Shown: piece after piece, positions 18,011-31,666 of the stretch
Layout of the letters: every line of letters starts with the position of its first letter
Position numbering within the stretch: the first letter of the stretch is position 1
Source of the DNA: Nocardioides palaemonis
GTDB taxonomy: Bacteria > Actinomycetota > Actinomycetes > Propionibacteriales > Nocardioidaceae
DNA length: 64,000 nt
Assembly: GCF_018275325.1 (NCBI RefSeq)
Contig: NZ_JAGVQR010000004.1
Coordinates: forward strand, 124,001-188,000
Direction of reading: 5' to 3'
Translations under genes and position numbers: made by a program
Notes under the pieces: generated by a model
The model's input: only the letters and a program-made list of their open reading frames with translations
Database searches by the model: none
Told to the model about the DNA's origin: nothing

Positions 18011-20448
18011 CTAGTCAGGCGTCCTGCGAGAACGCCAATCTGCGAGGCCGCGCAGCCGCTCCCCTGCCGCTGCGAACCGTCCGGACGGGTCCGAGCGCAG
18101 GAACGAGCGCAGGCTGATCGCCGCGCGCCACCGTTGCCAGCGCCCCACCCCGTGCGACATGGCACGCCGCTCGGCGTCGACCTGCTCCCAGTAGGCGGAC
18201 GCGGAGGCGGCCTCGGGGGCGTTCGGCCCGAAGACGTAGCCGTCCGCGCGGCGGGCGAGCCGGCCGGCCTCGCCGGAGGCGATCTGGGCTGACTGCTCGC
18301 GGCGGGTCACCGTCGGTCCCAGCGGGACGACCTGGCCGAGGTCGCGGGCGTGGTCGACGAGCTCGCGCCACGCGCCCACGAACCGGGCGGAGACGACCTC
18401 GGCGGTCCGGCGCCGGCGCCGGCGCAGCGCCTTGAGGCCCACGACCGCGCCGAGCAGGAGGGCGACCACGAGGATCGGCAGCCCGACGTAGGTCAGCACC
18501 GCGCCGACCCACCCGGGGAGACCCGGGATGAGGCCCTCCTCCTCGTCGGCCTTCTTGCGGGCGGTCTTGCGCTCCTTGAGGTCGGCGTCGCTCTGCTCGC
18601 CGGCGTCCGAGGGCGGCGGGATCGGGTTGGGCGGCGGGATGACCGTGCCGGACATCGGCGTGTTGGTCTGGGGCACCTGGTCGGCCGGCGGCGTGTCCGA
18701 CATGAAGCGGTCGGTCGGCAGCGTCTTCCACGAGCCGTCCGCCGCGCGCAGCTCCACCCACGCCTGCACGTCCTTGCCGGTGACCTGCCCGCCCTCCGGG
18801 ACCTCCGCCCCGAGGACGACGCGGGCCGGGACGCCAATGTCGTTGGCGATGAGGGCCATCGTCGCCGCGTACTGCTCGTCGTTGCCGACGATCTGCGGCG
18901 CGTTGACGAACTGGTCGGACAGCCGCCACACGTTGTGCCCGGCCACGTAGATGCGCTGGGTACGCCCCACGCCGTCGGAGTACTTGCCCTCCGTGCGCAG
19001 GTGGTCGGCAGCGGCCAGCACCCGCGCCATCGGGTCGGACCCGGCCTTCTCGGTCCACTTCTCGGTGGGCGCCTGGATGAACGCCGCGCTCCGCGGGAGG
19101 TAGGTCGGCTCGGCCGAGGCGACGGTCTCGTCGGTGAGCTCGTCGTCCGGCTCGATGGCGGTGAAGGAGTAGCGGTCGCCCGCCTGCAGGCCGCTCGGCA
19201 CCACGCCGGTGGAGGTGGCGAGGTTGTAGCGGAAGACCTCGGCCTTGGCCCGGGCGTCGGCGGTGTCGAAGTGCAGCGAGGTGAGCGCGCCGACGGTCGG
19301 CAGCCAGACGCCGTCGTAGCCCTCGTCGAGGGTGATGGTCACCTCGACCTCCCTGCCGTCGACCGGGTTGTCGATGGTCGAGGAGACCCGCTGGAAGGAG
19401 TCGTCGCCCGGACCGGCGAGCGCGTCGTCGGTGGCCCCCACACCATGCCGTCGTAGCGGTCCATGGTGGCGATCCGCACGCGGGTGCCGGGCGCGACCCC
19501 GTCGACGTCGAACAGCGCCTTGTCGTAGACGTTGGAGTTGTTGGTGCGGCCTCGGAGGTCGATGTACTTGCGGAAGCCCGCGAGCGGCGAGGGGTAGCGG
19601 CCGATGTCGAACGGCGGCTCGACCCAGTCCCGGGCGACCGCGCGGTCCCGGTCCTCGGTGAGCCAGGCGCTGGCCGGGACCGCGAGCCCGGCCGCGAGGG
19701 CGAGCATCGCGACCGCTCCGGCGCCCCGGACCCACGACCGGCTGCCGCCCTGGACCGCCGCGCTCGCGCGGCGGGCGCGCACGGCCAGCCAGCTCAGCGC
19801 GAGGCCGGCGAAGAGCGTCCCCTGGAGCAGCAGCGACTGCGGGTGACGCACGCCCAGGAGGATCGCGCCGGACAGCACCAGCGTCATGCCGAGGACCGGC
19901 AGCAGGGCGCTCAGCCACGGACGGCGGACCCGTACGTTCGCCAGGCCGGTGCCGACCAGGCCGGCGAGCATGCCGGCGAGCCACGGCAGGACCAGCAGCG
20001 GTCCGTCCCCGTCCACCGGCGGCAGCGTGGTGAGCAGGTCCTTCCAGCCGAAGACCGCCTGGTCGACGACCTCGGCCAGCGTCGACGGGCCGGGCAGCAG
20101 GCTGGTGTCGCCGAGCGAGCGCAGGCACAGCGGGCCGCCCAGCAGCAGGAACAGCACGAGCGAGATCACCACGGCCGACACGAACGGCCAGCCCGCGGCG
20201 CGGGTGAGGTGGGTGACCAGCACCGCCACGACCGTGCCGAGGACGCCGACGACGAGGTAGGCCGACCCGGTGAAGGAGGAGCCGAACGCGGTGAGGGCGA
20301 CGGTGCTCAGCGCGAGCGCGAAGCCGAGGTCGGTCCACGTGGCCGCGTCGGGCAGCAGCGCGTGCGACCGGACGCGCGTGCGGGTCCCGGTGGCGGCGAC
20401 GTTGCGGCGGCGGCCGCGGGAGCGGGGCGCGGGTCCGGCGGCGCTCAT
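18011..20448 (-). CDS. TgpA-like membrane protein with transglutaminase-fold domain, frameshifted and apparently catalytically dead
   Basis: Two frames join to one product of about 811 residues. The N-terminal part (20448 to about 19437) has six or more transmembrane helices and an extracytoplasmic start (DIGRYPSPLAGFRKYIDLRG). The C-terminal part holds a transglutaminase-like domain, a membrane helix (WVGAVLTYVGLPILVVALLLG) and a cytoplasmic tail. The frame breaks after DRYDGMVWG, where a run of five G would need six to continue as ATDDALAGPGDD. In the domain the nucleophile position reads GNDEQYAA, with Asp replacing Cys, and the catalytic His position reads KDVQAWVEL, with Gln replacing His. 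It is probably a structural pseudoenzyme. Its start overlaps the DUF58 stop (ATGA). The frameshift may be real or a sequence error. Confidence 0.8.
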
Positions 20449-21626
20449 CGCACGCTCCAGCGCAGGAGGCCGCCGAGGTCCTCCTTGACGGCGAGGTGGA
20501 GCACCGGCAGGCCGCCGGTCTCGGTGACTCGGCTGTTGCCGCTGGGGTCCACGACGATGCCGAAGCGGCGCACCTCCGGCGGGAACGCGGCCGCGGCGCG
20601 CAGCAGGTCGGTGAAGTCGGTGGCGCTGCCGCCGACGAGGAACACCACGCTCGTGTCGGGTGCCATCGTGGTGGCCTGCCGGCCGGACTCGACGATGCCC
20701 CGGTCGCCCGTCTCCGAGCGGCACACCGCGTCGAGCGCGAGGTGCCCGTCCGACCCGGTCGAGGCGTGCGCACCGCAGACGTACGACACGTCGAACTCGT
20801 CGAGGACCGCACGGACCGCGATCGAGGCGGCGACCGCCATCGCGGTCTCGAAATCCTCGGGGTCGGCCCAGGACCCGACCCGGTCGTCCACCACGATCGT
20901 CGCGTGGCTGCGCCGGGTGTCGAGGTACTGGCGCACCAGCAGCGCCGACTCGCCGGTCGACGCCATCACCTTCGCCGACGAGCGCCAGTGGATGTGGCGC
21001 AGGTCGTCACCGGGGACGTACTCGCGCAGTGCGTGGAAGGCGAGGTCGCTCTGGCTCACGGCGTCGGTCGACACGCCCTCGAGGTCGCGGAGCAGGCCCG
21101 CGCCGAGGGACTCCATCGGCACGAGGTGCGGGCGCACCAGGACCTCGCGGACCGGCGTCCACACCATGTCGCGGGAGAACAGCCCCACCGGGTCGCCGCG
21201 GCGCGTCATCGCCGGACCGACCGGGATCACCCCGCGGCGCTCGGTGCGGATCGTGAACGACTCCTCGTGGACGCCACCGGGCGCCAGCGAGCTGATGCCG
21301 TAGCGGTGGATCGCCGAGCCGACGGGGACCTCGAGAGTCGTCGGGACCAGGCGCGAGGACGCCCGGTTGACCACGAGCACGCCGGCGGCGACGGACTCCC
21401 CCGCGGCCACCCGCTCGGGCTGCAGCCGGAGGTCGACGCTGACGGCCGTGCTGCCGAGCAGGAACGGCAGCGCGACGACGAGCAGCAGCACGCACGCCGC
21501 GCCGAGGACGGCCAGCTCACGCCACTGCATGAGGCTGGCCACCACCCCCGCTCCGAGGCCGAGCCCGAGGACCAGCCAGCCGATCGGCTTGATGACCTCG
21601 AGCGCGTCGTTCAACCGCTGGCGCAT
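20445..21626 (-). CDS. DUF58 domain protein
   Basis: This 393-residue protein has two N-terminal transmembrane helices (about residues 14-55). A beta-rich domain follows, and then the DUF58 signature REYVPGDDLRHIHWRSSAK (about residues 205-223), which lies within a von Willebrand A-like fold (TIVVDDRVGSW). DUF58 proteins nearly always sit beside MoxR AAA+ ATPases and transglutaminase-like membrane proteins, as here, and are thought to work with them in assembling or activating protein complexes. It is 8 bp downstream of moxR and overlaps the TgpA-like gene. Confidence 0.9.
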   Translation of the reverse strand: MRQRLNDALEVIKPIGWLVLGLGLGAGVVASLMQWRELAVLGAACVLLLVVALPFLLGSTAVSVDLRLQPERVAAGESVAAGVLVVNRASSRLVPTTLEVPVGSAIHRYGISSLAPGGVHEESFTIRTERRGVIPVGPAMTRRGDPVGLFSRDMVWTPVREVLVRPHLVPMESLGAGLLRDLEGVSTDAVSQSDLAFHALREYVPGDDLRHIHWRSSAKVMASTGESALLVRQYLDTRRSHATIVVDDRVGSWADPEDFETAMAVAASIAVRAVLDEFDVSYVCGAHASTGSDGHLALDAVCRSETGDRGIVESGRQATTMAPDTSVVFLVGGSATDFTDLLRAAAAFPPEVRRFGIVVDPSGNSRVTETGGLPVLHLAVKEDLGGLLRWSVR

Positions 21627-21634
21627 GGACGTCG

Positions 21635-22606
21635 TCAGATCCCCACGCGGTCGGTCGGGGGCGCGACGGCGTCGAGCAGCCGGGCGATGACGGTCTGCAC
21701 GTCGACGCCGCTGAACTGCGCCTCGGCGTCGAGCAGCAGGCGGTGCGCGAGCACCGGCTCGGCGAGGTCCTTGATGTCGTCGGGGACCACGTGGTCACGG
21801 CCGTCCGCAGCTGCCCACGTCTTGGCGACGCGGACGAAGGCCAGGCAGCCGCGGGCGGAGAGGCCGAGCTTGACGTGCGGCTGGCGGCGGGACTCCTCGG
21901 CCAGCTCCGCGACGTAGCCGATGACCGCCGGGTCGACGTAGACGTCGTCGGCCAGGCCGCTCATCTGGGCGATCGTCGCCGCCGTGATCACCGGGGTCAC
22001 CAGCGCGGCGCGGTCGCGGACCGCGGCGTTGTTGAGCAGCTCGACGGTCGCCTGGCGGTCGGGGTAGCCGACGGAGGTCTTCATCAGGAAGCGGTCGAGC
22101 TGCGCCTCGGGCAGCCGGTAGGTGCCGGCCTGCTCGATCGGGTTCTGGGTGGCGATGACGAGGAACGGCTTGCCCACGGGGTGCGCGACGCCGTCGACGG
22201 TGACGCGCCCCTCCTCCATCACCTCGAGCAGCGCCGACTGCGTCTTCGGCGACGCGCGGTTGATCTCGTCGGCGAGCACGATGGTGTGGAAGATCGGCCC
22301 GGGGTGGAACTCGAAGGTGCCCTTGTGCTGGTCGTAGACCGTCACGCCGGTGACGTCCGAGGGCAGCAGGTCGGGCGTGAACTGGATCCGGGCGTGGCTG
22401 CCCTGCACCGTGTTGGCGAGCGCGCGGGCGAGCATCGTCTTGCCGGTGCCGGGGAAGTCCTCGAGCAGGATGTGGCCCTCGGAGAGCAGGCAGGTGAGCG
22501 CCAGCCGCACGACGTGCCGCTTGCCGAGGACGGCCTTCTCCATGTTCTCGGTGAGCTGGTCGAAGGTGGACTGGAACCACTCGGCCTGTTCCTGGCTGAT
22601 GGTCAT
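21635..22606 (-). CDS. MoxR-family AAA+ ATPase
   Basis: The 323-residue cytoplasmic ATPase has Walker A FPGTGKTMLARALA (about residues 53-66), Walker B IVLADEINRASPKTQSALLEV, sensor 1 VIATQNPIEQAGTYRLPEAQLDRF, and the C-terminal lid of MoxR proteins (LGLSARGCLAFVR). MoxR ATPases act as chaperones that insert cofactors or mature partner proteins, together with vWA/DUF58 proteins. It lies 28 bp after the giant Ig/FN3 gene, which suggests that protein as client; this is inference. Start ATG 22606. Confidence 0.94.
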   Translation of the reverse strand: MTISQEQAEWFQSTFDQLTENMEKAVLGKRHVVRLALTCLLSEGHILLEDFPGTGKTMLARALANTVQGSHARIQFTPDLLPSDVTGVTVYDQHKGTFEFHPGPIFHTIVLADEINRASPKTQSALLEVMEEGRVTVDGVAHPVGKPFLVIATQNPIEQAGTYRLPEAQLDRFLMKTSVGYPDRQATVELLNNAAVRDRAALVTPVITAATIAQMSGLADDVYVDPAVIGYVAELAEESRRQPHVKLGLSARGCLAFVRVAKTWAAADGRDHVVPDDIKDLAEPVLAHRLLLDAEAQFSGVDVQTVIARLLDAVAPPTDRVGI

Positions 22607-22634: not shown

Positions 22635-25600
22635 TCATTGCTCGCTGGGCTGCCACGTGACCGTGGAGGTGCCCGTCTGCAGCCCCGTCGTGTCGGTGCA
22701 CGTGACCGTCACGGTGCCGCCCGGTGCATACCACGCGGTCTCGAAGCCGCCTCCCGGGTGGTTGGAGGTCTGCCGGCCCGGATTGCCGCTCTGAGGGTTC
22801 AGCACTGCGCCGCTCACCGTGCAGTCGTAGTTCTCCAGGAAGCCCTCGGTGGCCAGCCTGATCGTGCTGCAGCTGTTGAGGTTGCACGCCGGCGACAGCG
22901 CCGAGGTCTTGCAGGGGCGCGTGGTGTCCGGCCCGTCACCGCAGAGCTGGCCGCGCGCGATGCTGACCGCGGGGGCCGGCGGCAGGCCGGACTTGGTCCG
23001 GTTGTCGCCCGAGTCCTCGCCCCGGCCCGCACGCACCGGGTCGAAGACCGCCACGCTGAGGCGGACGTCCTGGTTGTAGTTCTGCGTGGTGTACGTCTTG
23101 GTCTGGACGCTGAACCGGCCGCTGACGCCGGGCTGGGTCGTGATCGGCTGCTCGCCATCGCCGTCGAGGTCGTAGCGCACCGAGACCGGTGCGCCGTTCG
23201 CGGTTCCGGAGATCACCCAGTAGATGTTCTTGCCGTTGACCACGGGCCGGATCTCGCTGATCGCGTCACCGAGCGGGCCGTAGCTCTGGGCCTGCTTGAC
23301 GCCGCTCAGCGTGCAGCCGGCGGGCGCCTTCTCGTTGCAGACACGGAGCTCGACATTGGAGGGGGTGTCGTTGCCCGGCGTGGACACGGTCACCGTGTTC
23401 TGCCCCGTCTGGTTGGGGAACGACCGGGCCACGCCGTTGACGAGGACGTCGACGTTGCTCACGCTGCCGCGGGCGTCCGGCACGGTGTAGGTCAGCCGCA
23501 GCTCCTGGCTGGTCCCTGTCGGCACCACCGACCAGTCGCTCCACGGTGCCGGTCGGCCGACCAGGGACACCGACGTGCCCTGGCTGGCGGGCGAGCGGTT
23601 GCCGACGTTGGCGGCGGTGACCCGGTAGGTGTAGGTCGCCCCGTCGTAGGACAGTCCCGAGTGGGTGCAGGTCAGGTTGGGCGTCTTCTGGCACCCCGGC
23701 ACCGCGACCTCGGCGCCGCCCGTGGAGTAGGTCACGGTGTAGACGGTCGGCCCGGGTCCCTCGGGCGACACCTCGCCCCAGCTGATCCGCACCGAGGTCT
23801 GGTTGGCGCCGCTGATCAGGTCGGTCACGGCCGGCGCAGCCGGCTGCGGCGGGGTGCCGAGGGGCTGCATCGCAGCGGACTGTCGTCCGTCGGACCACCC
23901 GACGTCGTTCTTCGCCCGGACGGTGAACAGGTACTGCTTGTTGTTGTCGAGGCCACCGATCGGTGCGCTCAGCACGTTGCCCGGCACCTCGACGGTCCCG
24001 CCGCCGCCGGTGATCTCGTACTTCTCGATCTTCGAGGTGTCGGTGTCCGGTGGCTTCCAGCCGATCGTGATGGTGCCGTCGCCGCGCTCGACCATCGTGA
24101 TGTCACGCACGCGTCCGGGCTTGGTGTCGGCCTTCGCGGACTTCGACAGCTCGCTCCACTCGCCCTCGCCGACGCGGTTCGCCGCACGGACCTGGAAGCT
24201 GTAGCGGGCGCCGATCTTCACCCCGCGGAAGACGCACTGGTTGTTGGTCGCGCACCGCTGGACGTCGCCCGACCTGTCCTCGCGCACCTGGTAGTAGAGG
24301 ATCGGCGCGCCTCCGTCGTCGTCCGGCGCCCGCCAGCCCATCTTGACCGTGCCCGCCTCGTCGGACAGCGGGAACGTGAGGGGTGCGCCGGGCGCCGACG
24401 GGGTGCCGATCACCTGGAACTGGATGAGGCCCTCGGCCCGTCGCGAGGCCGGCGGCGAGGACCGGTCCACGTCGCTGACGACCAGCCGGAACCGTGCCTG
24501 CGCGCCCCGCGCGTCCTCCGCCGCGGTGAGCGTGAGCCGGCTGCCGTCGCTGCTGGCCCGGACCGCCGGGTTGCCGACGTTCTCCACCGACACGATGGTC
24601 GGCGACGGGTCGGACACGCCCGAGGTCAGGAAGGTGGACACGTCGATGGTGCGGGAGGTGCCGGCCTCCATCGTCTCCACCTTGATCGGCGAGAGCCGGG
24701 GTGGCGGGGCCTGGTCGAGCTGGAAGCGCACCTGCTGGGTGTTGCTGTCGCCCGCGCGCACGGTGAGGACGGCCTCCCCGCCCTCCGTCGCGGTCTCGTC
24801 GGCGCTGACCCGGACCACCGATCCGTCGGGCGCGCCCAGGCCGAGCCCGTCGAGCGACTGGTCCCACTCCGCGGAGTAGTCCAGTCCCGCGGCGTCGCGC
24901 GGGTCGAGCGTGAACACCGTGCAGTAGCTCGCGATGTCGAGGTCGACCTGACCGCCGGCCGAGATCGGGATCGGGGAGCTCGGGCAGGTGAGCTCGGGGC
25001 GGTCGTCGCCCACCTGCACCGGGATCGACAGCAGGACGGTGGCGCCGTCGGAGGTGGTGGTCGAGTCCTCGTTGCCGCTGCTGTCGGTCGCCGAGGTGAC
25101 CTCGACCAGCAGGGCACCGGGGCCGCGGAAGCCGGGTGCCGCCGACAGGCGGAAGCCGCTGTCGCCCTGCGGGTCGACCGACAGCGGCGACGGGGACGCC
25201 GACCAGGACCCGCGCCCGGACGCGAGCCGGACCTCGGCGTCGCCCGGGGCGGACACGTAGTCGCCGAGCGAGCCCGTGACGTCGCCGCCCTCGTCGAGCT
25301 CGACGAGCGCGCCGTCGACGACGAAGGGCAGCCCGTTGCCCGTGGGGGGCACGTAGACCGAGGCGGACGCGGTGCCGCCGTCGGAGTCGCGCACGACGAA
25401 CGGGAGCACCTTGGGCTCGGCTCCCCGGTTCGCCCGGACCTGGACTTCGTCGACGACGCGGGCCGACTGGTCGCCCAGCACGTCGCTGACCTCGAGCCCG
25501 TCGACCGGGCCGTCGGGGTCGTAGGCACCCTCGAGCACGTCGACGACGACGCTGCCGCTCTCCCGCGCGCTGCCGAACGCGTCGTAGACGACCGGCGGGT

Positions 25601-28600
25601 TGTTGAAGTCCTTCGCGGTCGAGAGCGTCATGGTGCTGCGCGACTCGGTGATCCCGTTGCCGACGGTGTAGACGACCGTCACCGGCGGCTCGGTGAGGTC
25701 GTCGGGAGCCGGCACCGTGACGAGGTTCGTCCTCGGGTCGAGCTGCACGCCCTCCGGCGCGTCGACGAGCTTGACCACCGGGGTGTCGCCGGCCGCGACG
25801 AAGTCGTTGGCGAGCGGGTCGAACGTCGCCGTGCGCCCGGGCTCGACGGTGAGCCGGTCCTCCACCGCGAGGGGCCGCTGCGGCTCGCCGGCGTCGACCA
25901 CCACGACCCGCGCGGTCCCGGTCGCGAACGCCCCCCGGGAGTCGACGACGGAATAGCTGAACTCGTCGGTGCCGGTGGCGCGGGGGTAGGCCTGGTACTG
26001 CAGGAAGTTGCCGCCGTAGGACACGATCCGGCCGAGCCGCGGGGCCGAGGTGATGCCAGTGACGGTGACCGGGTCGCCGTTGCGGTCGACCCCGGCGCCC
26101 GGGACGCGGATCTTGACCTCGTCGCCACCGATCACCCGCGACTCCAGGGTGGGGGGCTCGGGCGGGTCGTTGCCCTCGTCCTTCGGGACGACGGTGACCC
26201 GCACGGTGCCCGGCGCCCGCTTGCCGTCGAGGTTCTGCGCGACGTAGGTGACGCTGAACGACTCACGCTCGGTGATCGTGTCGGGCGCGACGAAGCGAAC
26301 CAGACGGCCGGAGGTGAACGCCTGGCCCTTGTCGCCGGTGAAGTCGACGGGTGCGACGACGTCGAGCTGGCCGCTGGGCCCGCCGGTGGCGAGGTCCTGG
26401 AGCAGCGTGAGCCGGTCACCGGACGGGGACACGTCGTTGTCGAGCACCGGCACCGAGACCGACGAGCCCGCGCGGACGATCGCCTTGTCGGCGACCGTCA
26501 CGGGGGTGTTGTCCGCCGGTGCGGCCCGCTGGGTGACCACGACCTCGCCACGCACGCCGGAGTCGGCGCCGTTGCTGATCGTGTAGGACACGGTCTGCGT
26601 CGCGGGCAGCAGCTCGGGCTGCACCGCGGACAGGCGCAGCCAGCGTCCGTCGACGATCGCCACGTCGAGCTGGCCGGGACGGTCCGCCGTCGCGTTCTGC
26701 ACCGCCAGCAAGCCACCGGCCGGGTCGAGGTCGTTGGCCAGCACGTCGACGATGCCGGGTGCCTGCCCGTAGATCGTCAGGGTGTCCGGCATCGCGATCG
26801 GCTCGGCCGTGCGTCGCGGCCTCGGCTTCACGTCGACCCGGATGGCGCCCTGGTCGAGGTCCGCGTTGCCGTAGCCCGCGTCGTAGGACAGGAAGTAGGT
26901 CCCGGCCCGCTCCCCGGTGACCGTGACCACGCCGGCGTCGACGTCGGAGACGATCTTGAGCCCCTCCTGCGGCGGCACCTTGGCCGCGAGGGCGAGGTCG
27001 GCGTCCGGGCTGGTGGGGTCCGAGCCGGGCAGGTCGTTGAGCAGCGGGCGGATCTTGATCGGCTTGCCGACCTCGCCGCGCACCACGTCGGGCTCCGCCT
27101 TCGGGGCGAACGAGCTCTGGTCGTCGCGTGCCTGCACCTGGAAGCTGATCGACTTCTTGACCGGGGCGGAGCGTCCGTCGGTGACGGCGTAGTCGACGCG
27201 GACGAGGGAGCCGCCGCCCTCGGCCGAGATCGGGGCGGTGAAGCGGATCCGGCCGTCCGGGGTGGTGCGCGCCTGCGCGCCGGACTCCTCCCCGCCGACG
27301 GCGACGGCGGAGTCGAGCAGCAGCGTGTCGCCGTCGCTGTCGTCGCGCCAGTCCGCCAGCACGGGCACGGCGAGGGAGCCGCCGTCGGGCACCTTGTAGG
27401 TGGGCTTCTCGTAGCCCGCCCGCTGCGTCGGCGCCTCGTTCTCGCCGTCCCCGCGGACCGCCACGTCCACCCGGGCGTGGGCCGACACCCCGTCGCGGCC
27501 GTCGTCGATGAAGTACTCGAACGAGGCGTCGCGGCCCTCCTCGGGCATCTGCAGCACCAGGGTCTGGCCGTCCGGGCTGATCTCGACGCGCGCGTCGCCG
27601 CTGGGCTGCTCGACGTCGACGATGCTGAGCAGGCGGCCCTCGGGCGCGGAGTCGTTGTCCAGCGGGTGCAGGACGGTCGTGCGTCCGGCACGGACACCGT
27701 AGGAGTCGGGCTTCGCCTGCGGCGGGCGACGGTCGGCGTCCGTCTGGTTGTCGTTCTCGTCCTCGTCGTCGTCGTTCTTCTTCTTGGAGGTGAAGGCCTC
27801 CCAGTTGTCGATGCGCCGCGCGTCCTCGCGGTCGACGTCCCAGACCGTGCCGGTGAGGGCGTCGTTGAGCACGATCTCGCCGCGGTTGACCCGGTAGGCG
27901 AGGCTGCTCGCGTCGCCGCCGAGCGTGTCGGCCCGGACCTCCGAGGACCCGCACTGGCGGGCGAACGAGCCCACCCCGCCGGACCAGGCGCCGAACACGC
28001 AGGCCCCGAGGCGGACCGGCGCGACCGGGATGCCGCCGGCGGAGGCGACCGTCGTGGTGTCGCCGCTGGCGAGGTCGACCGACAGCAGGGCCTCGGGCGT
28101 GCCGACGAGCACCGATCCGGCGTCCGGCCCGGGCTGCTGGAGCACGCTCCCGGCGGTCACGCTCGCGGACGCGCCGCCGACGACCGTCAGCCGGCCGGAC
28201 TCCGCGTCGAGGGTGACGACGCGCTCGCCCACGGTCGTCACCTGCGAGACCTCGCCCGCCTCCGACGGCAGGTCGGTGGTCGCGGGCTTGCCGAACGCCG
28301 CCCCGGCAGGCTCGATCGTGGTGAGGGTGTCGTCGGCCGCCGACGCAGTCGTGATGGTGCCGTCCAGGCTGACCGCGAGGACCGCTCCCTTCCCGGCCTC
28401 GGCGAGCGCGTCGGCCTGGCGGTCGACCACGCTCATCAGCGGCGCGCCGACCTGGCTGTCGTAGCGGACCGCCCAGACCTTCCCGCTGTCGGGGTCCGCG
28501 CTGGCCAGCGTCCCGCCGCCCATGGCGACCTGGCCGCCGGTGGGGATGGCCGCGGACCCTCCGTCCTGCGCCTCGAGGCGGGTCGTCTCGATGGCCTGGC

Positions 28601-28901
28601 CGCGGCTCGCGTCGAGGTTGACCGTCACCACGGCGGCCCCGTCCTGGACCACGTCGAGCCGGGTCTTGCCGTCCTGGGTGGGCACCACGCCGTCGAGCTG
28701 GTCGATCGGCTTGTTCAGACGTCCCGACCAGCCCTTCTTGCCGTTGACGACCCAGACGCCCCCGTCGTTGAGCTCCGCCTCGTGGGACTTGTAGCCCTCG
28801 GCGGTCACGACGTAGACCAGGATGCCGCTCAGGGCGAGCGCGAGGGCAGCACCGGAGGCGATGCCCGCCCGGTGTCGACGCACGAAGGAGCCTCGCGCCA
28901 C
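22635..28901 (-). CDS. Giant single-pass cell-surface protein: N-terminal propeller-like region, about ten Ig-like and three to four FN3 domains
   Basis: The product has 2088 residues. A single N-terminal membrane helix (GIASGAALALALSGILVYVV, about residues 10-30) anchors it with the bulk outside. Residues of about 40-370 carry short repeated strands (DSGKVWAVRYD, LASGDTTTVASAGG) resembling a beta-propeller. An acidic linker (KKKNDDDEDENDNQTD) leads to about ten Ig-like repeats with the VLxNDxDP pattern (HPLDNDSAPEG, VDVLANDLDPAGG, VPVLDNDVSPSGD, FDPLANDFVAAGD). Fibronectin type III domains follow at about 1505-1890, then a Cys-containing C-terminal region. No LPxTG signal is seen. GTG 28901 is chosen for its AGGGGG ribosome-binding site and anchor. 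It heads the giant-moxR-DUF58-tgpA string. Confidence 0.88.
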   Translation of the reverse strand: MARGSFVRRHRAGIASGAALALALSGILVYVVTAEGYKSHEAELNDGGVWVVNGKKGWSGRLNKPIDQLDGVVPTQDGKTRLDVVQDGAAVVTVNLDASRGQAIETTRLEAQDGGSAAIPTGGQVAMGGGTLASADPDSGKVWAVRYDSQVGAPLMSVVDRQADALAEAGKGAVLAVSLDGTITTASAADDTLTTIEPAGAAFGKPATTDLPSEAGEVSQVTTVGERVVTLDAESGRLTVVGGASASVTAGSVLQQPGPDAGSVLVGTPEALLSVDLASGDTTTVASAGGIPVAPVRLGACVFGAWSGGVGSFARQCGSSEVRADTLGGDASSLAYRVNRGEIVLNDALTGTVWDVDREDARRIDNWEAFTSKKKNDDDEDENDNQTDADRRPPQAKPDSYGVRAGRTTVLHPLDNDSAPEGRLLSIVDVEQPSGDARVEISPDGQTLVLQMPEEGRDASFEYFIDDGRDGVSAHARVDVAVRGDGENEAPTQRAGYEKPTYKVPDGGSLAVPVLADWRDDSDGDTLLLDSAVAVGGEESGAQARTTPDGRIRFTAPISAEGGGSLVRVDYAVTDGRSAPVKKSISFQVQARDDQSSFAPKAEPDVVRGEVGKPIKIRPLLNDLPGSDPTSPDADLALAAKVPPQEGLKIVSDVDAGVVTVTGERAGTYFLSYDAGYGNADLDQGAIRVDVKPRPRRTAEPIAMPDTLTIYGQAPGIVDVLANDLDPAGGLLAVQNATADRPGQLDVAIVDGRWLRLSAVQPELLPATQTVSYTISNGADSGVRGEVVVTQRAAPADNTPVTVADKAIVRAGSSVSVPVLDNDVSPSGDRLTLLQDLATGGPSGQLDVVAPVDFTGDKGQAFTSGRLVRFVAPDTITERESFSVTYVAQNLDGKRAPGTVRVTVVPKDEGNDPPEPPTLESRVIGGDEVKIRVPGAGVDRNGDPVTVTGITSAPRLGRIVSYGGNFLQYQAYPRATGTDEFSYSVVDSRGAFATGTARVVVVDAGEPQRPLAVEDRLTVEPGRTATFDPLANDFVAAGDTPVVKLVDAPEGVQLDPRTNLVTVPAPDDLTEPPVTVVYTVGNGITESRSTMTLSTAKDFNNPPVVYDAFGSARESGSVVVDVLEGAYDPDGPVDGLEVSDVLGDQSARVVDEVQVRANRGAEPKVLPFVVRDSDGGTASASVYVPPTGNGLPFVVDGALVELDEGGDVTGSLGDYVSAPGDAEVRLASGRGSWSASPSPLSVDPQGDSGFRLSAAPGFRGPGALLVEVTSATDSSGNEDSTTTSDGATVLLSIPVQVGDDRPELTCPSSPIPISAGGQVDLDIASYCTVFTLDPRDAAGLDYSAEWDQSLDGLGLGAPDGSVVRVSADETATEGGEAVLTVRAGDSNTQQVRFQLDQAPPPRLSPIKVETMEAGTSRTIDVSTFLTSGVSDPSPTIVSVENVGNPAVRASSDGSRLTLTAAEDARGAQARFRLVVSDVDRSSPPASRRAEGLIQFQVIGTPSAPGAPLTFPLSDEAGTVKMGWRAPDDDGGAPILYYQVREDRSGDVQRCATNNQCVFRGVKIGARYSFQVRAANRVGEGEWSELSKSAKADTKPGRVRDITMVERGDGTITIGWKPPDTDTSKIEKYEITGGGGTVEVPGNVLSAPIGGLDNNKQYLFTVRAKNDVGWSDGRQSAAMQPLGTPPQPAAPAVTDLISGANQTSVRISWGEVSPEGPGPTVYTVTYSTGGAEVAVPGCQKTPNLTCTHSGLSYDGATYTYRVTAANVGNRSPASQGTSVSLVGRPAPWSDWSVVPTGTSQELRLTYTVPDARGSVSNVDVLVNGVARSFPNQTGQNTVTVSTPGNDTPSNVELRVCNEKAPAGCTLSGVKQAQSYGPLGDAISEIRPVVNGKNIYWVISGTANGAPVSVRYDLDGDGEQPITTQPGVSGRFSVQTKTYTTQNYNQDVRLSVAVFDPVRAGRGEDSGDNRTKSGLPPAPAVSIARGQLCGDGPDTTRPCKTSALSPACNLNSCSTIRLATEGFLENYDCTVSGAVLNPQSGNPGRQTSNHPGGGFETAWYAPGGTVTVTCTDTTGLQTGTSTVTWQPSEQ

Positions 28902-28957
28902 GTGTATCCCCCTACACCCCTGGATGACCCCACGCCCGCCGCAGGCATCCCGCATGG

Positions 28958-28987
28958 AGGGTATGTAGACGGTCAAGGATCAGACAA
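28958..28987 (-). promoter_or_regulatory. Candidate promoter of the giant-protein operon
   Basis: On the minus strand TTGTCT (28982-28987) and TACCCT (28958-28963) are separated by 18 nt, upstream of GTG 28901. It lies in the 159-bp space shared with the divergent FHA gene. Confidence 0.3.
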
Positions 28988-29060: not shown

Positions 29061-30257
29061 TTGATCGTGGAAGCGCGGTACGCCAGCGGGGGCGGCGTGC
29101 TGGTGGGCAGCGGTGCGCACTGGGTGCTGCTCACCGACCCCGGCGACGAGCAGGTCGTCCAGGAGCTCTGGGAGGCCCTCAGCCTGGCCGTCCCGTCGGG
29201 CGCCGGAGTGGCCGAGCGCGTCCTCGCGATCGTCGAGAAGGCCTTCGACGGCGAGCCTCCCGGCCTGGCCCTGGTCGACTTCACCTCGGGCGCCTCGACC
29301 TCGATGTCGCGCGGGTCCGGCCACGTCCGGCTCGCGGGCGCCAGCCGGGTGCTCAGCCTGGACCACGGCGCGGACCCGGACCACCTCGCGCCGCTGCGTC
29401 GCCTCGTCGGCGGCGTGGTCGCGGCGTCACGGGTCGAGCTCGAGCCCGTGTCCACCCGGACCGCTCCCCCGCCGACGCCACGGGCCACCCCCGCTCCGCC
29501 CGCCGCGGCCGCGCTGATCGACGGCATCCCGGCGGCGATCCTCGCCGCACGCGGGCCGGACGGCCCGCCGCCGCGCACCCGCGTGCGCCGACCGGTCGAG
29601 GACACCGGCTCGCTGACCGACACCTCCGAGCCCGACCCGCTCATGGTGCAGCGGATCGAGGAGGGCAGCCACACCACGATCCGGCCGCCGTCGGCACCCC
29701 ACGACGTCCCCGGCGACGCCTCGGCCGACGCTCTCGACGACCACGACGGCTCGACCACGCTGCGGCCCGCCCACCTCACCCACAGCACCGCGCCGACCGT
29801 GCTGGCCGTGAGCTGCCCGCTGGGCCACCTCACCCCGCCGATCGCCCCGCAGTGCCGGGTGTGCCACCAGCGCGTGGCGCCGCAGGAGCCCCGACGCGTC
29901 GACCGCCCCTCGCTCGGCGGGCTGCGTCTGCCGACCGGCGAGGTGGTCCCGCTCGACCGCGGCGTCGTGCTGGGTCGCAAGCCGGCGCCGACGGAGGGCA
30001 GCACCGACTGGCCGCACCTCGTGCACCTGCCGGCGGACCACTCGTTCGTCTCCCGGCGCCACCTGTCGATCGAGCTCGACGGGTGGGACGTGGTGGCGCG
30101 CGACCTCGACAGCCGGGGTGGCACCACCATCGCGCCGCCGGGTCGCGAGCCGCAGCGGATGCGTCCGGGCGATGCGTACGTGCTCGACCCCGGTACGGTC
30201 CTGGACATGGCCCACGTCTACGCCGTCCGGTTCGAGACGGGAGCAGCCGCCCGGTGA
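29061..30257 (+). CDS. FHA-domain protein with zinc ribbon
   Basis: This soluble 398-residue protein starts at TTG 29061 (MIVEARYASGGGVLVGSG), with GGGGAG just upstream. An N-terminal domain of about 115 residues is followed by a Pro/Ala-rich linker and a C-x3-H-x9-C-x2-C zinc-ribbon-like knuckle (CPLGHLTPPIAPQCRVC, about residues 252-268). A C-terminal forkhead-associated domain (about 300-385) has the conserved GRKP, SFVSRRHLSIELDGWDV and DLDSRGGT elements. FHA domains bind phosphothreonine. Its stop overlaps the kinase start (GTGA), so the two should be made together, the FHA protein being a likely substrate or adaptor of the kinase. Confidence 0.87.
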   Translation: MIVEARYASGGGVLVGSGAHWVLLTDPGDEQVVQELWEALSLAVPSGAGVAERVLAIVEKAFDGEPPGLALVDFTSGASTSMSRGSGHVRLAGASRVLSLDHGADPDHLAPLRRLVGGVVAASRVELEPVSTRTAPPPTPRATPAPPAAAALIDGIPAAILAARGPDGPPPRTRVRRPVEDTGSLTDTSEPDPLMVQRIEEGSHTTIRPPSAPHDVPGDASADALDDHDGSTTLRPAHLTHSTAPTVLAVSCPLGHLTPPIAPQCRVCHQRVAPQEPRRVDRPSLGGLRLPTGEVVPLDRGVVLGRKPAPTEGSTDWPHLVHLPADHSFVSRRHLSIELDGWDVVARDLDSRGGTTIAPPGREPQRMRPGDAYVLDPGTVLDMAHVYAVRFETGAAAR

Positions 30258-31666
30258 GCGCGCCGGTCATCCCCGGGTTCACGTTCGTCGAGCACCTGGG
30301 AAGCGGCGGGTTCGCCGACGTCTTCCTCTACGAGCAGCAGTGGCCGCGCCAGCGCGTCGCGGTGAAGGTCGTGCGGCCCGATGTGCCCCTCACCGACCGC
30401 GAGAAGTACCTCTTCACGGCCGAGGCCAACGCGATGGCCCGCCTCGCCGACCACCCCTACATCGTCTCGGTGATCACCGCGGGGGTCACCGCCGAGGGCG
30501 GTCGCCCGTTCCTGGTGATGCGCTACTGCCCGCCCCCGGACCTCGGCGTGCGGGTGCGCTCCAACCCGATGTCACCGATGGACGCGGTGTCGACGGGCAT
30601 CAAGCTCGCGAGCGCGATCGAGACCGCCCACCGCTCTGGCATCCTGCACCGCGACATCAAGCCGAGCAACGTGCTCGTCACGAGCTACCACGAGCCGGCG
30701 CTGACCGACTTCGGCATCGCCGGCCACATGGCCGAGGTCGAGGGCGACGACGACGTCCGGATCTCCTACCCCTGGTCGCCCCCGGAGCTCCTCGACGGCC
30801 GCTCCAACGGGTCGGTCGCCTCCGACGTCTACTCCCTCGGCGCCACCATCTGGCACCTGCTCGTAGGGCGCTCGCCGTTCTCCATCCCGTCCGGCGACAA
30901 CTCCACCCGCGCGCTGAGCGCCCGCATCCTGCACGCAGCGCCCCCGGCCACGCAGCGCCCCGACGTGCCGCCCGCGCTCGACCGGCTGCTCCAGCAGTGC
31001 CTGGCCAAGCGGCCCGAGCACCGGCCCGCCAGCGCGCTCGAGCTCGCCCGCGCCCTCCAGCGCATCGAGTCCGCCGCCGGCTGGGCCCGCACGGCGGTCG
31101 CCGTCGAGGGCGACCGGCCCGACGCCGCGGTCGCGCCCCCGGACGCCGCCGGTGTCCTCGAGTCGCTCGAGGACGCCACCGCGATGAAGCCGGTCACCGT
31201 GATCTCCGCGAGCGGACCACGCCGGATCGCAGCCCAGGACCCCGCACCGGCCCCGGCCGGCGACGAGGACGCGACCCGCGGACCTGCCGGGCTGGTCTGG
31301 GCGGGCGTCGGCGCAGCCGTCCTCGCCGTCGTGGTCGGCGTCCTGGTGCTCGGCGGGCGCGACGAGGACCCGGGCGTGCAGGTGCCGACGTCCTCGATCA
31401 CCCCGTCCGACCCGGTGGCCGACGAGCTGACCAAGGCACCCACCCTCACCGGGCGGCGTACGGCCCGGGGCGTGCTCTTCACCTGGAACGCCCCCGTCGA
31501 GATGCAGGACGGCGACGCCTTCAGCTACCACCGCGACGACACCGACGACTACGGCACCACCACCAAGGAGCAGCTCCTGGTCCGCACCCCGGACCCGATC
31601 TGCCTGGACCTGCGGATGACCCGGGGCTCGGACTCCTCGCCCAGCGCCAGCCAGTGCGTCACCTGA
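30254..31666 (+). CDS. Transmembrane serine/threonine protein kinase
   Basis: The 470-residue kinase has an N-terminal Hanks-type domain (about 8-280): glycine loop LGSGGFADVF, VAVKVV lysine, HRDIKPSNV catalytic loop, DFGIAG, and SPPEL at the APE position. A juxtamembrane linker of about 65 residues precedes one membrane helix (AGVGAAVLAVVVGVLVLGG, about 348-366). The roughly 100-residue outside domain contains LTGRRTARGVLFTWNAP and looks like an FN3-type sandwich; it is not a PASTA sensor. The match of an FN3-like sensor with the FN3/Ig giant protein transcribed divergently nearby is suggestive. Start GTG 30254. Confidence 0.92.
   Translation: MSAPVIPGFTFVEHLGSGGFADVFLYEQQWPRQRVAVKVVRPDVPLTDREKYLFTAEANAMARLADHPYIVSVITAGVTAEGGRPFLVMRYCPPPDLGVRVRSNPMSPMDAVSTGIKLASAIETAHRSGILHRDIKPSNVLVTSYHEPALTDFGIAGHMAEVEGDDDVRISYPWSPPELLDGRSNGSVASDVYSLGATIWHLLVGRSPFSIPSGDNSTRALSARILHAAPPATQRPDVPPALDRLLQQCLAKRPEHRPASALELARALQRIESAAGWARTAVAVEGDRPDAAVAPPDAAGVLESLEDATAMKPVTVISASGPRRIAAQDPAPAPAGDEDATRGPAGLVWAGVGAAVLAVVVGVLVLGGRDEDPGVQVPTSSITPSDPVADELTKAPTLTGRRTARGVLFTWNAPVEMQDGDAFSYHRDDTDDYGTTTKEQLLVRTPDPICLDLRMTRGSDSSPSASQCVT

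Follow-up and report, generated by a model that had tools for sequence, protein, structure and literature searches.

A conserved TgpA-family pseudoenzyme in an FN3–MoxR–DUF58 operon of Nocardioides and other actinobacteria

We analysed a stretch of 64,000 nucleotides from Nocardioides palaemonis (the window), in which genes for an FN3/Ig giant, a MoxR ATPase, a DUF58 protein and a TgpA-like (tgm-like) membrane protein follow one another on one strand. This is the gene order FN3–MoxR–DUF58–Tgm of the host-signalling PFNA cluster, for which the available text of PMC8430577 and PMC6803598 gives the layout pkb2-fn3-aaa-atp-duf58-tgm in Bifidobacterium. A PFNA-type kinase neighbour is also present in the window together with an FHA-domain protein, although on the opposite strand. 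The features of the locus are as follows, with the basis of each assignment in brackets where one applies.

18014-19441, minus strand: C-terminal two thirds of the TgpA-like gene, comprising the ectodomain, the last transmembrane helix and a C-terminal tail (open frame, PF01841)
18563-19441, minus strand: modelled ectodomain, 293 residues, Cys count 0 (AlphaFold, TgpA match)
18716-18718, minus strand: Pro242 codon, replacing the catalytic Asp/Glu (alignment)
18764-18766, minus strand: Gln226 codon, replacing the catalytic His (joint alignment)
18878-18880, minus strand: Asp188 codon, replacing the catalytic Cys (alignment and helix position)
19435-19441, minus strand: -1 frameshift at a run of five G; the relatives' sequence here is GGGGCG or GGGGGG (DNA comparison)
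19435-20449, minus strand: N-terminal part of the TgpA-like gene with hydrophobic segments, in another frame (the single open reading frame of relatives maps here in frame -2)
20445-21626, minus strand: DUF58 protein with two N-terminal hydrophobic segments (PF01882, hydropathy)
21635-22606, minus strand: MoxR AAA+ ATPase with PGTGKT and DEINR motifs intact (PF07726, E 2e-62)
22635-28976, minus strand: FN3/Ig giant with one N-terminal hydrophobic segment and seven Big_9 and three fn3 stretches
29061-30254, plus strand: FHA-domain protein, divergent (PF00498, 28.1 bits, cut-off 20.7)
30260-31663, plus strand: Ser/Thr protein kinase, pkb2-like, divergent (PF00069, E 2e-39)

The PGTGKT of the window MoxR agrees with the Walker A of MoxR proteins, which reads xxPGxGKT. 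The DUF58 protein scores 20.1 bits against PF01882, slightly below the cut-off of 23.4, and has BLAST relatives in both types of operon described below. Several hydrophobic segments precede the window-type domain, as TgpA would have; hydropathy of one orthologue (L025) gave eight segments before the domain and one after it. The active TgpA of the same genome matches the TgpA_N profile (PF11992), and the frame-broken window fragment and the L209 protein give no match to that profile. A check of the TgpA-like proteins against NCBIfam profiles yielded no name. All 49 loci matched by the window protein in named genomes belong to Nocardioides or Nocardioidaceae.

The region 18014-19441 is part of a single open reading frame in orthologues. 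When six relatives were compared with the window by tblastn, the match broke between two frames at 19435-19441, just upstream of the domain, and at the DNA level the window (GTGTGGGGGCC) has one G fewer than its relatives (GTGTGGGGCGCC or GTCTGGGGGGCC). The Nocardioides relatives compared have a single reading frame across the G-run site. The window frameshift is either an assembly or sequencing error or a real, recent mutation, and it leaves the conclusion reached below for the whole clade untouched.

The window domain exceeds the PF01841 cut-off (39.6 bits against 23). Its active site is altered. The minus-strand frame 18014-19441 reads GNDEQYAATMAL at the Cys site and KDVQAWVEL at the His site. 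An initial annotation had noted Asp in place of Cys and Gln in place of His, and both replacements hold when the protein is aligned with Cys-type relatives and with TgpA. Aligning the protein jointly with 31 relatives of the Cys type, and comparing it with solved TgpA, places Asp188 at the Cys position, Gln226 at the His position and Pro242 at the Asp/Glu position, so that, beyond what had been annotated, the third residue of the triad is also gone. The profile of Cys-type proteins pairs with solved TgpA at GYCEQFA/GFCAHYA, HAW/HAW and EPT/DPT, and against this TgpA chain the profile of Cys-less proteins matches along YA...HAWVE...DPT. A phmmer search of PDB sequences with the single window protein missed TgpA; the alignment profile retrieved it.

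The ectodomain has no Cys in all 62 dereplicated Cys-less relatives and exactly one in all 31 Cys-type proteins. An intact Cys-His-Asp triad elsewhere in the domain was looked for and is ruled out, the window ectodomain having no Cys at all. With the triad gone, the ectodomain free of Cys and the whole clade alike, the domain is almost certainly inactive as a cysteine transglutaminase or protease, as the initial annotation had suspected. Conservation of both replacements among orthologues, which it had also raised, was found for one of them only: the 38 Nocardioides sequences in the codon set all encode Asp (GAC in 37, GAT in 1), which indicates that Asp at the Cys site is not chance, but Gln is not kept, the His position reading S, Q, A, H or E with a freely varying codon.

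Structure modelling confirmed a predicted transglutaminase fold that is intact despite the loss of the triad. The AlphaFold model of the ectodomain (62 sequences) has a pLDDT of 89.2 and a pTM of 0.81, and its best full-length solved matches are Pseudomonas TgpA 6g4h (Z 13.1; rmsd 3.9, 198 aligned) and 6g49 (Z 13.0), with a Foldseek E of about 1e-6; the next structural match reaches only Z 9.5. Asp188 starts helix 188-202 just as Cys196 starts helix 196-209 in a model built for the active paralogue from the same genome (L147), and Gln226 and, in L147, His239 sit in corresponding strands (E225-233 and E238-246).

The loss of Cys extends far beyond the window. In a first survey of 132 TgpA-like domains, 81 had an upstream FN3 homologue and every one of these was Cys-less, the Cys position being occupied by Asp in most, by Ala, Glu or Gly in others and by Ser in one; four of the 81 loci duplicate named loci, leaving 77. 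All 35 Cys-type domains (33 loci) had MoxR and DUF58 and none had an FN3 match; the search for FN3 used a single BLAST query, and score rather than random choice decided which Cys-type loci entered the neighbourhood survey. A second, order-level survey added 19 further loci, again all FN3-linked and Cys-less. In total, about 96 non-duplicate loci combine an FN3/Ig giant, MoxR, DUF58 and a TgpA-like protein, all Cys-less and including seven Bifidobacteriaceae PFNA operons. The FN3-linked loci, apart from one outlier, fall in one well-supported clade, and because the loss is clade-wide, chance or local mutation is ruled out as its cause.

The FN3 partner is not fixed, since it goes undetected in some members of the clade. 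Several from Nocardioides (for example L045-L051, L150 and L151) have no detectable FN3 gene, and the Cys-less Nocardioides paralogues at L150:7927-9744 and L151:7881-8798 carry in its stead, upstream of MoxR, a gene of the PorA family (PF11271). Outside the FN3 clade, Ser-type TgpA-like proteins (GTSEQFA) occur at L174 (3323-6409 and 7843-10719) and L182. L174 has its own, shorter protein upstream of MoxR, with fn3 domains confirmed, a possible second origin of the FN3 arrangement that was seen once. Another Cys-less group reads GYSEQHA (Ser, with His kept) and GYVEQFA (Val) in L175 and L178, which are independent active-site changes, and proteins at L176:2246-5845 and L183:10944-14513 have tandem transglutaminase domains with Cys and His in both. 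The DUF58 partner also differs between operon types: the Asp of its LLDxR motif is kept in Cys-type operons and is often Ser or otherwise altered in FN3-linked ones (L114-L226), in which DUF58 may thus have changed a metal-site residue too. The window DUF58 reads VVDDR, with the Asp kept.

In a tree for which the three catalytic columns were masked, one branch splits Cys from Cys-less rows (100/98), and the 49 rows of the FN3 clade group together with support of 100/100. A second tree places Bifidobacteriaceae inside the FN3 clade, and the smallest clade that includes both them and the window is without Cys. The FN3 link and the loss of Cys are essentially one old event that was inherited, not many independent ones. 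The direction of change was from Cys to non-Cys, because the Cys form is widespread in other classes and is found in TgpA itself. Replacement of Cys probably came before that of His and Asp, which followed in Nocardioides, for instance, as L114-L119 and similar members retain His, mostly with Asp or Asn as the third residue.

Purifying selection is evident in close pairs. The dN/dS ratio is about 0.07-0.2 in the nearest pairs and 0.23-0.34 between the window and its nearest relatives (Nei-Gojobori; values are given for close pairs only, as the method saturates in distant ones, where the median is 0.37). Q190, R207, W228 and E230 show little or no variation in either the Cys or the FN3 clade, whereas G168, H169 and R173 are almost fixed in the FN3 clade and far less so in the Cys clade; these residues near the old site would fit a binding surface that has been kept. 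Given the invariant flanking residues and the selection in close pairs, the TgpA-like FN3 clade is, judged by sequence, a conserved pseudoenzyme rather than a relic or a case of decay.

Seven of the 19 order-level loci come from one family (f117), which was assigned to Bifidobacteriaceae by a genus 16S signature that we take to be characteristic of it. The signature occurs in 7/7 f117 genomes of two genera (g361 and g371) and in 0/14 genomes of other families, and is negative in one further f117 genome (g380). By the same signature, the class-level genome sample held no Bifidobacteriaceae; the order-level sample had them. The FN3-type proteins of Bifidobacteriaceae read GDSEQYA, carry FYPT for FDPT and have their His replaced by T, A, Q or E.

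The window protein is a multi-pass TgpA-family pseudoenzyme and a standing member of the FN3/Ig giant–MoxR–DUF58–TgpA-like operon. For its function we favour, with a probability of roughly 60%, an adaptor or receptor role tied to the FN3 protein, in which binding is what we infer. TgpA topology puts the transglutaminase domain outside the membrane (PMC3507681), and because the window-type domain sits between the eighth and ninth hydrophobic segments it is placed outside too. On this analysis the dead domain and the FN3 giant should lie outside, with MoxR and the body of DUF58 inside. The FN3/Ig stalk, or adjacent wall peptide, would then dock in the old substrate cleft, and docking would be relayed through the membrane to the MoxR–DUF58 chaperone pair, the TgpA-like protein acting as an adaptor or receptor and not as an enzyme.

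The FN3/Ig giant is the outside partner encoded in the operon, and its presence tracks the Cys-less state. The conserved fold and the residues kept near the old active site fit binding, and peptide binding by the domain, one of two roles proposed in the initial annotation, appears possible from these sequence features. The other role, a scaffold for MoxR–DUF58, is only partly right: it fits poorly as stated, because the domain would be outside whereas MoxR and the soluble part of DUF58 would be inside. Counting against the adaptor or receptor role are the co-occurrence with FN3, which amounts to roughly one clade, the frameshift in the window gene and the Nocardioides members that lack FN3. 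A wider version, which we hold only tentatively, is a transmembrane receptor module in which the dead ectodomain could read the FN3/Ig stalk or a peptidoglycan peptide and signal to MoxR–DUF58 and the kinase–FHA pair inside, and which could be common to many Actinomycetes, including the bifidobacterial PFNA.

The Cys-less protein could instead be a regulator or decoy of active TgpA, through mixed complexes or by competition for substrate or for the MoxR–DUF58 partners. The window genome does have one active TgpA (L001/L147; GYCEQFA, HAW, FEPT) with its own MoxR–DUF58, as well as two further Cys-less paralogues (G000:C4:287009-287821, L128; G000:C1:2178476-2179267, L151), and inactive enzyme copies have been proposed as effectors in other MoxR–vWA systems (PMC7159879). 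The second of these paralogues reads ATPFQYS at the old active site and has a very long branch. We nevertheless consider such regulation unlikely: of the 18 Bifidobacteriaceae genomes searched, 9 have no TgpA-like match besides the FN3-type protein, which argues that no active partner is needed; a few have a separate Cys-type protein. It is just as unlikely that the domain is a structural remnant, a mere spacer between membrane parts in an operon whose function lies elsewhere. A conserved non-catalytic fold requires no ligand, but H169, R173, R207 and E230, near the old cleft, are almost unchanged in distant families, which exceeds the needs of a spacer.

The replacements might also support a different chemistry, with Asp or Ser at the Cys site as an acid, nucleophile or metal ligand alongside His and Asp. 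Asp occupies the Cys position in 48 of the 62 Cys-less members, His is still found in L114-L119, and Bifidobacteriaceae carry Ser. However, other members have A, G, E or P at the Cys position, the His is missing in 36 of the 62 (26 keep it; Q, S and T occur in 7 each, E in 6 and D in 5), and the third residue is more variable than the majority of columns (ranks 158 and 178 of 273). The Ser of Bifidobacteriaceae is paired with Tyr at the Asp site and, in place of His, with T, A, Q or E, and the window protein, with D, Q and P, is left without a catalytic set, which makes a new chemistry very improbable. Least credible is a decaying or dead gene, in which triad loss and frameshift would together mark pseudogenization: the window -1 frameshift was confirmed against six relatives, but it falls in a run of G, a context prone to assembly errors, the adjoining window genes are intact, Nocardioides relatives keep one frame, dN/dS in close pairs is well under 1 with the window divergence in line, and at the level of the clade decay is ruled out by conservation, as many families share the Cys-less state and their flanking columns do not vary.

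If all members of the FN3-linked clade are pseudoenzymes, the search for a substrate becomes a search for a ligand, and the MoxR–DUF58 pair acquires a defined outside partner. The family would also offer a natural series of active-site loss within a conserved operon, from C-H-D/E through D-H-D to D-Q-P or S-T-Y, and a sequence criterion that distinguishes active TgpA from dead proteins given the same name by profile searches. In the full text of the open-licence literature, we found no bacterial transglutaminase pseudoenzyme of a TgpA-like FN3 family, which does not prove priority.

Among known systems, Pseudomonas aeruginosa TgpA (PA2873; PDB 6g49, 6g4h) is likewise a multi-pass protein with an extracytoplasmic transglutaminase fold. 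TgpA has a Cys-His-Asp triad and measured transglutaminase activity (PMC3507681), whereas the window protein has other residues at all three triad positions, gives no Pfam TgpA_N match in its N-terminal part and is encoded in an operon that starts with an FN3 giant. Inactive eukaryotic proteins with the transglutaminase fold, EPB42, FBXO21 and menin, have scaffold or binding roles (PMC10318531) and, like the window protein, have lost the catalytic residues; they are distant in the superfamily, soluble or cytoskeletal, and have no MoxR–DUF58 operon. In ternary MoxR–vWA systems, MoxR, a co-chaperone and inactive enzyme domains recur (PMC7159879), but the effectors there are part of conflict systems and for the most part occur as fused domains, in contrast to a membrane protein with an outside domain.

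The PFNA Tgm of Bifidobacterium resembles the window protein in its operon order (fn3-moxR-duf58-tgm), in its place in the same clade and in the loss of the triad. The available text of PMC8430577 and PMC6803598 treats Tgm as an enzyme (a putative transglutaminase in PMC6803598) and makes no mention of a missing triad; PMC8430577 shows co-transcription of the PFNA genes for B. longum GT15 only. As far as this text goes, the PFNA literature calls Tgm a transglutaminase or cysteine protease, and the residues at its active site argue against both names. The two loci differ in the residue at the Cys site, which is Ser in bifidobacteria, and in the kinase and FHA genes, which are divergent in the window and not in line with the operon.
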